From positions 124,001-188,000 of the forward strand of contig NZ_VCPD01000007.1 in assembly GCF_005938215.1 (NCBI RefSeq): DNA of 64,000 nt. Direction: 5' to 3'. The translations under genes were made by a program, and so were the position numbers. The notes beneath the pieces were generated by a model. The model did no database searches. It worked only from the letters and a program-made list of their open reading frames with translations, and was not told where the DNA came from. Positions 25,678 through 32,197 of the stretch are shown here, one piece after another (positions within the stretch are counted from its first letter, which is position 1; each line of letters starts with the position of its first letter). Source of the DNA: Ruegeria sediminis (GTDB taxonomy: Bacteria > Pseudomonadota > Alphaproteobacteria > Rhodobacterales > Rhodobacteraceae).

Positions 25678-26790
<1,113 letters not shown>

Positions 26791-26887: not shown

Positions 26888-27505
26888 TTACTCTTGATAC
26901 AAGATATTGTGCACCGGCTTGAACGAACGCCTATGGTGTGGGGTGACACCCAGATTTTGAAGCGCCTCGCGATGCTGTTTCGACGGATATCCGGCGTTGG
27001 TTTCCCAGCCATATCCCGGATGCTGTTGCGCCAAATCCACCATCACCCGATCGCGCCAGATCTTCGCGGCGATCGAGGCCGCGGCGATCGAAACAGAACG
27101 GCTGTCGCCCTTGACCACGGCCTGGCTGGGCAGGCCCAGGCCGCGCGGAATCATGTTGCCGTCGATCAGCAGGAAGTCCGGCGCCGGATCGAGCGCGGCC
27201 ACCGCGCGCTCCATCGCCAGGTGCGAGGCGCGCAGGATGTTGTGGCGGTCGATTTCCGCGACGCTGGCCTGGGCCACCGAAACCTCGGCGCGGTCTTGCA
27301 GGATCCGCTCCAGCGCGTCGCGACGCCCGGGCGTCAGTTTCTTGGAGTCGTTCAGGCCCTCGGGAATGTCGTCGGGGTTCAGGACGACGGCGGCGGCCAC
27401 GACCGGCCCGGCCAGCGGCCCGCGCCCCACCTCGTCCACGCCGGCGATCCTGAGATATCCGCGCGCGCGCAGCGCCAGTTCCAGATCGTAATTCGGTGTC
27501 TCCAT
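26888..27505 (-). CDS. rnhB: Ribonuclease HII
   Basis: A 205-residue enzyme that cuts the RNA strand of RNA-DNA hybrids and starts removal of single ribonucleotides from DNA. The family opening AGVDEVGRGPLAGPVVAAAVVL carries catalytic D24 and E25. LIDGN holds a further catalytic aspartate, and YPSKQHREAL is near the C terminus. The length is normal. I start at METPNYDLEL (27505). It lies upstream of ccrM on the same strand. Confidence 0.96.
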   Translation of the reverse strand: METPNYDLELALRARGYLRIAGVDEVGRGPLAGPVVAAAVVLNPDDIPEGLNDSKKLTPGRRDALERILQDRAEVSVAQASVAEIDRHNILRASHLAMERAVAALDPAPDFLLIDGNMIPRGLGLPSQAVVKGDSRSVSIAAASIAAKIWRDRVMVDLAQQHPGYGWETNAGYPSKQHREALQNLGVTPHHRRSFKPVHNILYQE

Positions 27506-27542
27506 ATTCCCCGCAAACCGCGTTTGCGCGATGCGTGCAAGC

Positions 27543-27574
27543 AAAAAGGGAGGGCCGCGCGACGCAGCCCTCCC
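27543..27574 (-). terminator. Rho-independent terminator of the His-rich protein gene
   Basis: GGGAGGGC (27548-27555) pairs with GCCCTCCC (27567-27574), and five A residues at 27543-27547 give the U tract on the minus strand. It separates the His-rich gene from rnhB. Confidence 0.82.
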
Positions 27575-27612
27575 CTCGCGGCGCTCCTTGCGGCGCCGCT
27601 CCCGCTCGAAAC

Positions 27613-28125
27613 TCAGTCGCGGTAGACGACGCGGTATCCCTGTTGGCGCAGGCATCGCGGTTCGTAGGCGTGGCGGACCCTGTCACCGTTCCAGAATCCG
27701 ACCTTGCAGGCCTGCGGCAGTTGATTGGCGTATTTGTAGTGTTTCTGCAGGCAGCCCGGCCCGAGCAGCGGATGGTTGCCTGCATAGCCTTCGAACCGGC
27801 GGAGGCATCGCTGCGGCAGATCATAGCGGGCGACGCGGTCCGGCAGCGGGCGGACATGGTGCGGTTTGTGGTGCCGCTTGTAGTGCTGCTTGTGATGCGG
27901 TTGATGCGCGTGATGGTGGGGCCGGTGATCATCGCGCCGGGCCACGTAGTTGTCGCGCTCGCGGTCCTGGTTCTTTTTGTACTGGTGGACCGCCGCCCCG
28001 ATGAGGGCGATGGCGGCCAGACCGCCGAGAATGTCCTTTGCATCCGCGGCCCGCGCCCGGGATGCGGAAAAACCGGTGAAGATGATTGCAGTCGATACGA
28101 TCAGGGCAATGAATTTGCGATGCAT
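27613..28125 (-). CDS. Exported histidine-rich protein
   Basis: A 170-residue protein that I do not recognise as a named family. It has a signal peptide (MHRKFIALIVSTAIIFTGFSASRARA) and a second hydrophobic stretch (DILGGLAAIALIGAAVHQY). The middle is dense in histidine, with about 13 His in 25 residues mixed with Lys, Arg and Pro. The C-terminal part contains four cysteines. The His block could bind zinc, copper or nickel, and the cysteines could form disulphides, but both are inference. It is divergent from the small secreted protein gene and has its own terminator. Confidence 0.75.
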   Translation of the reverse strand: MHRKFIALIVSTAIIFTGFSASRARAADAKDILGGLAAIALIGAAVHQYKKNQDRERDNYVARRDDHRPHHHAHQPHHKQHYKRHHKPHHVRPLPDRVARYDLPQRCLRRFEGYAGNHPLLGPGCLQKHYKYANQLPQACKVGFWNGDRVRHAYEPRCLRQQGYRVVYRD

Positions 28126-28300: not shown

Positions 28301-28588
28301 ATGAAACAGATCCTCGCTTCCCTGGCCCTCACGGCCCTGATAACCCTGTCTCCTGCAATTGCTGCGGCCCAGTGCTATGCCGACTACAAGGCGAAACAGG
28401 ATTCACCCCTGCGCCTGCATTACGGCGTCATGCAGGTGTCCAGCTGCTCGCCCGGCGAGGCCGCCGGCGAAGTGGCGGGGCGCCTCAAATCGGCGGGCTG
28501 GACGCTGCTGAACGTGATTTCGGTCTTCGGGCCGGAGGGTCTGGAAAAAAGGAAGGCGAATGCCGGACAATTCTATCTCCGTTTCTGA
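28301..28588 (+). CDS. Small secreted protein of unknown function
   Basis: A 95-residue protein with a clear signal peptide (MKQILASLALTALITLSPAIAAA), then QCYADYKAKQDSPLRLHYGVMQV and a second cysteine in SSCSPGEAAGEVAGRL. The mature protein has two cysteines that could pair in the periplasm. The segment SAGWTLLNVISVFGPEGLEKRKANAGQFYLRF resembles small conserved exported proteins of the Roseobacter group with no known role. ATG 28292, three codons earlier, is the alternative start. Its last 29 bases overlap the membrane winged-helix gene. Confidence 0.8.
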   Translation: MKQILASLALTALITLSPAIAAAQCYADYKAKQDSPLRLHYGVMQVSSCSPGEAAGEVAGRLKSAGWTLLNVISVFGPEGLEKRKANAGQFYLRF

Positions 28589-29261
28589 GGCCCGCCGGTC
28601 CGGGGTGCGGCTGGCCGGGGTCGGAATTGCGGTGATCGTGGCGATACTGGTGACGGCGGCGGCATTTCTGCTGTGGACCCTGCCCGACGCCAACGCCTTC
28701 AACGCGAAAGTCGAGCGGCTGTTCGTCGAAAGCGATCTGACCTCGCAGGCGGAAATCAGGCTGCTTGAGATTCTTGCGCAATCCGGCACCGCCTTTGCCG
28801 ACACGCTGTCAAGCTACCGGATGGTGATCTTCGTCCTGCTGGTCTTTGCCAGTGCGATGCTGCTGGCCGCCCTGGTCTGCCTCGTCATGCTGGTCACGCT
28901 GAACCGGCGCATGGCCCAGATCGAACGCACCGGGATCCAGGTGACATCCCTGCTCATCAGCCGGGAGGAGAACACCGTCTACCTCAACAACATGGATTTC
29001 AGGCTGACGCCGGCGGCGATGGAGACGCTGGCGGTGCTGGCCGAGTCGCGGCTCGACGACGAAATCCTGTCGGGCGCCGAGATCGAGGCGATGATTTCCG
29101 GCAAGGACGCCGTGGATTGCGAGGAGGCCGCCGGGGCGACCCGGATAAAACGGCTGCGCGACACCCTCGGCAACCAGATGGTCAGCGAGTTGCTGGTCAA
29201 GAACGTGGCACGAAAGGGCTACATGCTCGCCATCGACAAGGACGTCATTCAGATGATCTGA
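28560..29261 (+). CDS. Membrane-anchored winged-helix protein, putative transcription regulator
   Basis: A 233-residue protein. Two hydrophobic helices (about 17-40 and 88-113) flank a 47-residue periplasmic loop. The cytoplasmic part (114-233) ends in a fold resembling the C-terminal DNA-binding domain of OmpR-type regulators: a beta start (NTVYLNNMDFRLTPAAMETL), a candidate recognition helix (TRIKRLRDTLG) and a wing ending RKGYML. There is no receiver domain. I infer a one-component membrane regulator like CadC or ToxR but with DNA-binding at the C terminus and the membrane part at the N terminus. It overlaps the secreted-protein gene by 29 bases. Confidence 0.75.
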   Translation: MPDNSISVSEARRSGVRLAGVGIAVIVAILVTAAAFLLWTLPDANAFNAKVERLFVESDLTSQAEIRLLEILAQSGTAFADTLSSYRMVIFVLLVFASAMLLAALVCLVMLVTLNRRMAQIERTGIQVTSLLISREENTVYLNNMDFRLTPAAMETLAVLAESRLDDEILSGAEIEAMISGKDAVDCEEAAGATRIKRLRDTLGNQMVSELLVKNVARKGYMLAIDKDVIQMI

Positions 29262-29264
29262 GGC

Positions 29265-29567
29265 CTAGTGATTGGGGGATTCGCGCCCGAATTCTCCCTT
29301 GCGCTCCGGCTGCCGAGGCGTGGGGCAGCAGACGCAGCGCGCCATGTTGTCGTAGATCAGTTCGTCATGGATGTTCGGGCATCCCCGCCCGGGCTGCGTC
29401 ACCACCCGGCCCGGATTGGCAAGCGTCTGGCAAACCGCCATGCAGATGCATTCGCTGCGGCTGGGCGGTTTCGGCGTCTGCGCCAGCGCAGCCCCCGCGA
29501 CGACGCAGAGCAGCACCGATCCAGACACGATCCGCCGTCCTTTTCGTGCTGTTCTTGCCGCTCTCAT
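29265..29567 (-). CDS. Small exported cysteine-rich protein
   Basis: A 100-residue protein with a basic N terminus and hydrophobic signal segment (GSVLLCVVAGAALAQ). The roughly 70-residue mature part has seven cysteines in SECICMAVC, GCPN and RCVCC. The pattern suggests a small disulphide- or metal-bound domain in the periplasm. I recognise no named family. The gene is convergent with the winged-helix gene, three bases apart, and divergent from the DUF427-cyclase gene with an 81-base gap. The coding call rests on the signal peptide and cysteine pattern. Confidence 0.65.
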   Translation of the reverse strand: MRAARTARKGRRIVSGSVLLCVVAGAALAQTPKPPSRSECICMAVCQTLANPGRVVTQPGRGCPNIHDELIYDNMARCVCCPTPRQPERKGEFGRESPNH

Positions 29568-29648
29568 TCGGTAAAATCCTCGCGCCGCCCCTTGGAAACC
29601 CGGCGGAATGGACCATTCTTAGAAGATCCCCGGCTTGGGAGGCTGCAC

Positions 29649-31253
29649 ATGAACGTTCACGCCACTCCACAGACCAAAGGGTACGGCATAGAGATACAGC
29701 CACTCAAGGGTCGTATCGCCATCTATCGCGGCGACATCCTGCTGGCCGAAAGCACCGGCGCCAAGGTGATGTATGAAACGCGGCTTGCCCCCTCGATCTA
29801 TGTCCCGCGCGGGGATGTGAAGGTCGAATTGGGCGATCCGACCGAATTGCAGACCTTCTGCCCGTTCAAGGGCACGGCCACCTATCGCGATGTATTGCTG
29901 GGCGAAACCCGCATAGCCAATGCGGTCTGGGCCTATGACGACGCCTTGCCCGAAAGCAAGGCCATCCAAGGCTACATCGGCTTCATGCCCGACACCTATA
30001 CAAAGGTGGATCTGGGCGAGAACGCCCTGCGCGAAACGGACGAAGGCAATATCAGCGGACCCCTGGTCGATTGGCTGATGCGCGGCGCATGGTCGATTCA
30101 GACGCCCGAAGAGTTCACCCGCGCGCTGGCCGAGAAGATGCGGGAACACGGCATCTGCATCCAGCGCCTCGGGATCCTGGTCTGGTCGCTGCATCCCCTG
30201 ATCGCGGGCAAGCACTATATCTGGGAAAAGGGCAAGGACGAGATTTCGACCTATGCCCCGACTTATGAAATCTACGACCATCCGGGATTTGCCAACAGCC
30301 CGCTGCGACATGTTTCGAACGGGCTTGGCGGGGTGCGGCAACGGCTGGACGACGATCATCCCGAGAACAGCTTTCCCATCATGGAGGACCTGCGGGCCAA
30401 GGGCGCGACCGACTATGTCGCCATGCCGCTGCCGTTTTCGGACGGGCGGACCAATGTCCTGACGCTGACCTGCGATCACCCGGGCGGGTTCACCACCGCG
30501 AACCTGGGTCTCATCTTTGAATGTTCGGCGGTGATCGGCCGCTACTACGAAGTGTTCGTGCAGCGGGAGAACGCGCAGGCGCTGCTGGAGACCTATCTTG
30601 GCAAGCGCACGGGCGCCCGTGTTCTGGGCGGCGAGATCCGGCGCGGCGACGGTGACGAGATCGATGCGGCAATCATGTTCTGCGACCTGCGCGATTCGAC
30701 GGCACTGGAGGAAAGGCTGGGCCGGGACGCCTACATCTCGCTGCTCAACGGGTTCTTCGAAACGGTGTCCGAGATCGTGCACGCGCATGGCGGCGAGGTG
30801 CTGAAATTCATCGGCGACGCCGTGCTGGCGGTGTTTCCGGCGGGCGAGGACGCCGCGGCGGCGCAGGGTCACGCCCAGCGATCCGCCATCGAGATCGTGG
30901 AACGGCTGGCCGAACTGCGAGAGGGCGGTACCGATGCGCAGTACGATTGCGCGATCGGCCTGTCCTACGGCCGCGTGACCTATGGCAATGTCGGCTCTCG
31001 CGAGCGGCTGGATTTCACGGTCATCGGCCAGGCCGCCAACATCGCTGCGCGTCTCGGTGATTTCGGCAAGAACAACGGCCACCGGATCGTGGTGTCGCAG
31101 GACATCGAGCCGGCCTGCAGCGACGCCACGCCGCTGGGCGAGATCAACCTCCACAACGTGTCGCGCCCCGTGGTTTCCTACGCCATCCGTTCGCAAGTGC
31201 CCGACGCGGCGAACATCGCCGGGACCAAGGCCGAAGCGCAAGGCGTTATCTAG
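29649..31253 (+). CDS. DUF427-class III adenylate cyclase fusion protein
   Basis: A 534-residue soluble protein. Residues 12-115 are a DUF427 domain (GRIAIYRGDILLAEST, YVPRGDVKVEL, CPFKGTATY at 71-79, NAVWAYDDALPE). Residues about 130-330 are a linking region of unknown fold with HPLIAGKHYIWEKG. Residues 338-500 are a class III nucleotide cyclase with metal-binding D346 and D390, base-reading K386 and D455, and intact N464/R468, so it should be active as an adenylate cyclase. GGGAGG lies six bases before ATG 29649. The DUF427 domain's ligand is unknown; it may act as sensor. No membrane segment is present. Confidence 0.88.
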   Translation: MNVHATPQTKGYGIEIQPLKGRIAIYRGDILLAESTGAKVMYETRLAPSIYVPRGDVKVELGDPTELQTFCPFKGTATYRDVLLGETRIANAVWAYDDALPESKAIQGYIGFMPDTYTKVDLGENALRETDEGNISGPLVDWLMRGAWSIQTPEEFTRALAEKMREHGICIQRLGILVWSLHPLIAGKHYIWEKGKDEISTYAPTYEIYDHPGFANSPLRHVSNGLGGVRQRLDDDHPENSFPIMEDLRAKGATDYVAMPLPFSDGRTNVLTLTCDHPGGFTTANLGLIFECSAVIGRYYEVFVQRENAQALLETYLGKRTGARVLGGEIRRGDGDEIDAAIMFCDLRDSTALEERLGRDAYISLLNGFFETVSEIVHAHGGEVLKFIGDAVLAVFPAGEDAAAAQGHAQRSAIEIVERLAELREGGTDAQYDCAIGLSYGRVTYGNVGSRERLDFTVIGQAANIAARLGDFGKNNGHRIVVSQDIEPACSDATPLGEINLHNVSRPVVSYAIRSQVPDAANIAGTKAEAQGVI

Positions 31254-31387
31254 ACCGCCGGAATGACACGCCGTTTCCTTGTGAACTGCCCGCGATGCGC
31301 AGGGCCGATTTTCCAGGAGTGCCCAGTCGCGGTAAGGCGCGGCGGCCTGCGCGGCCGAACCGAACGGATTGGTGGCGTCAAGCGCAT

Positions 31388-32197
31388 TCACCGACGTCCG
31401 GGCCGGATTGACTGCAACAATGTCAAGGCTGTCTGAGCGGCCGGGTTCCCGGCGGAAAACGGCGCCATCTGCGCCCGCGCGAAATAAGTCGTCGTCAGCC
31501 GTTCGAGCGCCTCGGGCCGCGAGAATTGGGACAGGTTCGGCGAACCGGTGAGACGCGCGAGTTTGTCCTTGAACATTTCCAACTGCCTGTCGATGTCCAG
31601 CTGGGCAAAGGCCTTGGGCAGGCCAAGCGCCGTTTCCATCATGCTGCGCAGGGGCGGCTGGCTCATCAGTTCGAACCATTTCGTGTTCTCGCTGCCCTCC
31701 TTTCGGGCAAGGCCGGCAAGGGCATGTTGCGCATACAGCGCAATGCGCATCGTCTGGTCCGTTTCGCCGACGGATGCCTCGAACCGGGACGCCAGGTTCT
31801 TGCGCGCGATTTCTTGCATCTGTTCCGGCGAACCGGTCCTGACCAGTTCGCCCGGGCCAAACCCGAAGGCGGACGCCAGATCCCGGTATCTCTTGTCCGA
31901 CAGCCGGGTGGACAACGCATCCTTGGCACGCGTCCCGTCTTCGAGAATCCTGCGGATGAAATAGGTGTTGCGAATATCACTCTCCAACCCGAAGGCGCCA
32001 AGAGCGACGCGCAGCAATCGCGGGTCGGATACCAGATCGCCGGCCGATTTCACCTTGCCGATATTGTCCAGGAAGTACCGGCTGTCCCGTTCGTGCCGCG
32101 CGGTTCTGGAAAAGGTCTGCAACTGGATCTCGTGGGTCCTTTGCAGGAACCGCCATCCGACCAGTCCGCCGGTTGGGATGACCGGCTGGAAACTCAT
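31388..32197 (-). CDS. DUF1217-family flagellar-region protein
   Basis: A 269-residue protein matching DUF1217, a family found beside flagellar genes in alphaproteobacteria. It is helical, with repeated segments like RYFLDNIGKVKSAGDLVSDPRLLRVALGAFGLE and TYFIRRILEDGTRAKDALSTRLSDKRYRDLASAFGFG. Function is unproven. MSFQPVIPTGGLVGWRFLQRT is the typical N terminus, so I start at 32197. It overlaps flbT by four bases and is last of the flaF-flbT-DUF1217 string. Confidence 0.87.
   Translation of the reverse strand: MSFQPVIPTGGLVGWRFLQRTHEIQLQTFSRTARHERDSRYFLDNIGKVKSAGDLVSDPRLLRVALGAFGLESDIRNTYFIRRILEDGTRAKDALSTRLSDKRYRDLASAFGFGPGELVRTGSPEQMQEIARKNLASRFEASVGETDQTMRIALYAQHALAGLARKEGSENTKWFELMSQPPLRSMMETALGLPKAFAQLDIDRQLEMFKDKLARLTGSPNLSQFSRPEALERLTTTYFARAQMAPFSAGNPAAQTALTLLQSIRPGRR

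Follow-up and report, generated by a model that had tools for sequence, protein, structure and literature searches.

A DUF427 domain joined to a divergent GAF domain and a class III cyclase in Ruegeria sediminis: domain content, spread and possible signaling role

The locus and its gene neighborhood

The window analyzed in this study is a stretch of 64,000 nucleotides from Ruegeria sediminis (contig NZ_VCPD01000007.1). Within it, a gene on the forward strand (29649..31253, +) encodes a protein of 534 residues that combines a DUF427 domain, a divergent GAF domain and a class III cyclase domain, as judged from its translation, Pfam matches and full-length relatives. The reading frame contains no internal stops. 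Its upstream extension is open too, with a GTG at 29268; the ATG at 29649 is preceded by a GGGAGG run and is supported by the alignments of 75 out of 80 named relatives, which extend from residue 1 onward. The closest named relatives are from Ruegeria species (best identity 82%), and the fusion is retained in relatives down to approximately 38% identity. Conservation of the fusion across 12 families, together with purifying selection on its DUF427 part (dN/dS of 0.12–0.27 vs. seven relatives), led us to drop chance or a frame artifact as an explanation. An antisense ORF of 686 residues (29619–31679) is presumably a shadow ORF of this GC-rich gene.

The upstream gene (28560..29261, +) encodes 233 residues. 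Two likely membrane segments were recognized in it by eye, and its OmpR-type winged helix matches PF00486 (E 1.6e-5) just under the family cut-off (25.3 vs. 26.2 bits). The 80 named loci represent, by title, Rhodobacteraceae or their MAGs, and some of them end at contig edges; in 78 of them a winged-helix gene (75–90% identity among the relatives shown) precedes the fusion in the same orientation, with a median gap of 106 nt (387 nt in the window), and it is a possible operon partner of the fusion. The named loci also contain ccrM (76/80), rnhB (76/80) and a second cyclase (73/80), which in the window form one conserved block on the reverse strand: a class III cyclase of 475 residues matching PF00211 (24146–25573, −), a CcrM-like DNA methyltransferase (25678–26781, −; 644.5 bits by NCBIfam, below the cut-off of 830) and RNase HII (26888–27655, −). 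In Parasedimentitalea marina the ccrM–rnhB block resides on plasmid pW43D (L314). The interval that separates the fusion from the winged-helix gene contains a Cys-rich ORF of 100 residues (29265–29567, −) with a likely signal peptide, judged by eye; related ORFs occur in 10 of the 80 named loci.

Beyond the family of the window, these neighbors (the winged-helix gene, ccrM, rnhB and the second cyclase) were found near the fusion in none of the 18 fetched loci, and no neighbor cluster, other than that of the fusion itself, is common to more than three of the 20 fetched loci. The cross-family pairs and trios of neighbors that were inspected are generic (ABC transporter, isochorismatase, chemotaxis receptor, TPP enzyme). 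The neighborhood was, thus, set aside as a guide to a pathway, none of the neighbors outside the family of the window pointing to one. A different, unfused class III cyclase is encoded within approximately 6 kb of the fusion in four of the 18 loci of other families (L228, 7673–9031; L231, 4544–5860; L230, 9363–11135; L236, 4504–5550). Two of these loci come from one family, one of the cyclases has a receiver domain and one has PAS domains; since these genomes encode dozens of cyclases each, the proximity was not read as a link between the loci. A role in motility was likewise not adopted, because the flagellar genes downstream of the fusion (FlbT in 52 of the 80 named loci) are convergent to it and present only in a part of the loci.

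Domain content of the fusion protein

The DUF427 domain occupies residues ~10–121 (29676..30011, +). It had been proposed in an earlier note made from the sequence of this gene, and a profile search, which could have failed to return this family, gave a strong match to PF04248 at residues 26–114 (84.6 bits vs. a cut-off of 22.1; E 4.4e-24). A solved DUF427 protein (3djm) matches residues 14–119 (E 3.9e-12), and the predicted model of residues 11–120 is rich in strands, with pLDDT values of 88–98 per ten-residue block. Conserved positions of this part include E43, Y51, P53, the C71-P72-F73-K74-G75 stretch, A77, Y79, W94, Y96 and F112. Among them, E43, Y51, P53, the C-P-x-K-G-x-A motif, Y79, W94, Y96 and F112 are common to the fused domains and to stand-alone or tandem DUF427 proteins, and most of the shared residues are present in every fused sequence. 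Within the fused set of 117 distinct sequences (99 close relatives, 17 distant ones and the window protein itself), C71 and E43 are each found in 117, and K74 in 116, being replaced by Arg in the remaining sequence (L055). The single-copy DUF427 proteins, a group of 42 that includes one fused cyclase (L135), have C71, K74 and Y96 in 42/42 each and E43 in 36/42.

DUF427 is termed a domain of unknown function in the relevant passages of PMC4287342, which place it among the zinc-less members of the beta-tent fold, a fold that also comprises MsrB, the CULT domain of cereblon, MSS4 and TCTP. The passages on DUF427 in PMC4287342, PMC3388012 and PMC5307852 give neither a ligand nor a measured activity for it. 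Three further papers returned by the literature search (PMC6316151, PMC11288750 and PMC13304343) were discarded, as the passages retrieved from them concern DUF4278 or DUF4279.

The region of about 200 residues that connects DUF427 to the cyclase was described in the earlier note as a joining segment. The connection is indeed present, but instead of a plain linker it appears to consist of a divergent, GAF-like domain (residues ~138–300; 30060..30548, +) and a long helix. Modeled alone, the region folds as a domain with a mean pLDDT of 81. Its closest structural matches by VIA are the GAF domains of PDE5A (3mf0; Z 13.9, rmsd 3.4 over 165 residues) and 3k2n (Z 13.5), the latter also being detected by Foldseek (E 1.1e-7) along with 1ykd. 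A profile built from the fused and unfused middle regions matches GAF_2 in hhalign with a probability of 92.6%, the DUF427 and cyclase controls yielding 0.1–0.2%. A LuxR-type autoinducer-binding domain was considered as an alternative identity of this region. It is close in structure, with only slightly lower VIA scores (Z 12.7 for QscR and 12.2 for LasR), and weaker in the profile comparison (53.5% for PF03472), and it stays a less favored candidate next to GAF. Single-sequence Pfam searches returned no family at E ≤ 10 for the middle domain of the window protein, PF03472 included, and matched GAF_2 for five of 35 members at this threshold (best E 0.024); the profile of the middle region had no believable match among the sequences of solved structures. 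The label "divergent GAF" reflects this combination of a fold and a profile–profile match with no single-sequence Pfam match. The domain runs into a putative transducer helix (residues 283–319 of the model) followed by a Gly/Arg-rich linker, together spanning residues 283–334 (30495..30650, +). Residues Y316, G318, G328, R332 and G333 are common to fused and unfused relatives; the model has pLDDT values under 50 at residues 315–334.

The C-terminal class III cyclase homology domain (residues 335–513; 30651..31187, +) matches PF00211 at residues 340–487 (48.8 bits vs. a cut-off of 21.9; E 8.2e-13), and sequences of solved photoactivated and CyaB/CyaC-type adenylyl cyclases align with it from residue ~330–340. 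The catalytic part of the model superimposes by VIA on OaPAC (8qfg; Z 24.5, rmsd 2.1 over 187 residues) and CyaC (1wc1; Z 23.8). D346 and D390, which we take to be the metal-binding Asp pair, are present in all 117 fused sequences, as are T457 and R468; N464, presumably a transition-state residue together with R468, is present in 116. The Lys and Thr residues of bPAC, which we assume to set the choice of base, line up with K386 and T457 of the window protein. Recognition of adenine by Lys and Thr is the rule for class IIIb adenylyl cyclases, and by sequence the window protein has the Lys/Thr set of this type. Thus, the metal, base and transition-state residues of the domain are apparently all in place, in agreement with the earlier description of a complete cyclase, and the encoded enzyme probably makes cyclic AMP. 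K386 is accompanied by D455 in 112 of the 117 fused sequences. In the other five, all distant (L188, L189, L141, L194 and L196) and sitting on separate tree branches, both positions are changed jointly, to R386 and E455; a shift in base recognition is a possible meaning of this change.

At the level of the whole protein, a scan of NCBIfam gave cyclase matches only, far under the cut-off, and cyclase domains took up the results of a fold search. The whole-protein model has a pTM of 0.59, and its arrangement of domains carries no trusted confidence.

Spread and history of the fusion

A survey for the same architecture, suggested in the earlier note, recovered the full-length fusion in all 53 genomes of the same genus and in 21 of the 248 genomes of a family sample (own genome included). 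The class sample of 385 genomes has it in 20, again including the own genome and, in one case (G184), a truncated copy; these represent 12 families, and two of the genomes have two copies. In a phylum sample of 299 genomes, it was found in three, all from the same family and one of them the own genome. The fusion is, thus, fairly widespread in Alphaproteobacteria, and it is annotated. The earlier note had named a common, annotated architecture with a known role as a ground against its reading, and this applies by half: the annotation in two named records goes by DUF427 only, and no study of the DUF427–GAF–cyclase architecture or its role was found in the open-license PMC literature. Two named RefSeq records of Parasedimentitalea plasmids have the fusion under the product name "DUF427 domain-containing protein," so that surveys by product name could overlook it as a cyclase.

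PF04248 matches as such occur in 151 of the 385 class-sample genomes. Tandem DUF427 proteins are encoded in many genomes of the class and contributed 28 domains to the comparison of DUF427 sequences; one of them (L242, 10177–11034) lies about 3 kb from a fusion. A 2.7-Mb genome (G146) has 13 DUF427 matches, the other genomes listed having five or fewer.

The window genome (4.2 Mb) encodes four further cyclases that share residues ~136–511 with the fusion and lack its first 120 residues, and many more such DUF427-less GAF-cyclases are spread across the class. Among 34 of these unfused relatives, the shared core starts no more than 48 residues from the start of the open frame in 22 (at 9, 10 and 15 residues in L199, L259 and L263, respectively). 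GAF plus cyclase is, thus, a complete protein on its own, and DUF427 was added to a receptor with an input domain of its own. A search of the same genome with the fusion protein gave 22 matches: the fusion itself, a stand-alone DUF427 protein (C12:473427–473699) and 20 that align with the cyclase part. It also has ten cNMP_binding matches, nine of them above the family cut-off and possible cAMP targets; by these sequence counts, a large cyclic-nucleotide network is predicted for this organism.

A distinctive feature of the fused proteins is a GxGG turn at residues 225–228 (30321..30332, +), which the profile alignment places directly ahead of a GAF strand. The counts were made on distinct cores spanning most of residues 136–513, with identical cores counted once and the truncated G184 copy left out. 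In the first comparison, G225, G227 and G228 were each present in 40/40 fused cores vs. 11, 3 and 3 of 34 unfused cores, none of which has GxGG as such. In the wider set, of which 77 fused and 35 unfused cores were outside the first comparison, GxGG is found in 117/117 fused vs. 0/69 unfused cores, the unfused loci being the best-scoring matches and hence the nearer part of the unfused family. M259 and G287 show a similar but looser association with the fusion. This association suggests a GAF domain fitted to DUF427 in the fusion. It may also be merely a mark of common descent, since the fused proteins are compatible with a single clade and closely related sequences make up 100 of the 117.

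In a tree built from 40 fused cores and 34 unfused ones, a single supported group of 44 rows (100/99) takes in every fused protein along with four unfused rows; the tree program raised a flag on two long branches of unfused rows. The free tree requires two changes between the fused and unfused states, vs. a mean of 24.7 upon shuffling, and a tree forcing the 40 fused cores together is not rejected (p-AU 0.562), its score being even a little better. A single ancient fusion is the simplest reading of these sequences, compatible with the data rather than proven by them.

Possible roles of DUF427 and comparison with known systems

Overall, we consider it fairly probable that the product of this gene is a soluble adenylyl cyclase of the IIIb type, to which DUF427 provides a second input via the GAF domain. 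The retention of the residues typical of its stand-alone forms favors an input function of DUF427, as does its strict association with GxGG. According to this model, DUF427 would have joined the N-terminus of a GAF-cyclase early in alphaproteobacterial history. The soluble, presumably dimeric enzyme would use ATP as a substrate, and the signal would run from the GAF domain through the long helix to the catalytic dimer, as in other sensor-cyclases. The fused DUF427 would bind the same ligand as its free-standing counterparts and alter the cAMP output through the GAF domain, the GxGG turn being a putative part of the coupling. The interpretation offered in the earlier note, a DUF427 sensor that sets the level of cAMP, remains plausible. 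Its structural premise, DUF427 joined to an apparently intact cyclase, holds, but it overlooked the GAF domain in between, a more orthodox sensor than DUF427 and one that occurs in related cyclases without it.

The GAF domain could also be the sole sensor, with DUF427 as a structural, dimerization, localization or protein-docking module that binds no signal. Many relatives manage with GAF and cyclase without DUF427, and presumably work. DUF427 is, moreover, the fastest-evolving of the three domains: mean identities to the window protein are 64% among near and 34% among far relatives, as compared with 76 and 43% for GAF and 72 and 43% for the cyclase. Also in line with a docking role, MSS4, a fold relative of DUF427, acts on a Rab GTPase according to the passages on it in PMC4287342. 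Nevertheless, E43, Y51, C71, K74 and Y96 are kept even in the 17 distant fused sequences, and a mere scaffold would need none of them; we regard a sole GAF sensor as unlikely, if worth keeping in mind.

More speculatively, DUF427 and GAF may form one composite ligand gate, in which the conserved Cys/Lys/Glu site would capture or chemically process a small molecule, and the GxGG turn would be the route by which the outcome, or the shape of DUF427 with its ligand, reaches the GAF domain. Although we hold this to be rather improbable, it would mean that the molecule recognized by many DUF427 proteins is a signal controlling cAMP in Alphaproteobacteria.

Somewhat more doubtful still is a bifunctional protein that couples sensing with production, DUF427 being an enzyme that makes, modifies or removes the molecule read by the GAF domain. 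The near-invariant Cys and Lys of the CPxKG motif, together with the Glu, would suit an active site no less than a binding site, DUF427 matches separate from the fusion are present in 18 of the 20 fusion-bearing genomes of the class sample, and MsrB is an enzyme. MsrB has the beta-tent fold as well, as stated in the same part of PMC4287342. Against this idea, the literature passages on DUF427 give no activity, that in PMC5307852 offering only a computed link to deoxyhypusine monooxygenase, and the Pfam short name NTP_transf_9 found no backing in our analysis. A product other than cAMP, such as cGMP made by a guanylyl cyclase or another cyclic nucleotide, is very improbable for the window protein, given its bPAC-like Lys/Thr pair and the presence of T457 in 117/117 fused sequences, even though a guanylyl cyclase (Cya2, 2w01) and a cUMP synthase (7r65) are among the close structural neighbors of its catalytic part and five of the 117 have R386 and E455 in place of K386 and D455.

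Returning to the preferred reading of DUF427 as a second input, the protein would hold two possible sensor modules in one enzyme and offer a route to what DUF427 recognizes: fusion to a cyclase gives this domain a measurable output, and cAMP yield could serve as a screen for its ligand.

A comparison with known systems places the fusion next to three groups of proteins. The DUF427-less GAF-like class III cyclases of Alphaproteobacteria, exemplified by L084–L087 of the window genome and by plasmid-borne members in Sinorhizobium and Rhizobium, have the same GAF domain, transducer helix and cyclase domain, with ~28–42% identity to the fusion over residues ~136–513; they differ by the absence of DUF427 and of GxGG (0/69) and by Phe rather than Ser at position 350 in 53/69. 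Stand-alone DUF427 proteins (PF04248; 3djm) have the same conserved residues as the fusion, CPxKG included, but are mostly free single-domain proteins or tandem pairs without a cyclase. Finally, bPAC, OaPAC (both with a BLUF sensor) and the tandem-GAF cyanobacterial cyclase 1ykd share with the fusion the general order of a sensor, a helix and a class III catalytic domain. The bPAC and OaPAC entries superimpose on its catalytic part with VIA Z scores of ~20–24.5, and bPAC has the Lys/Thr base residues, whereas the fusion has DUF427 followed by GAF in the position of their BLUF or tandem GAF sensors.
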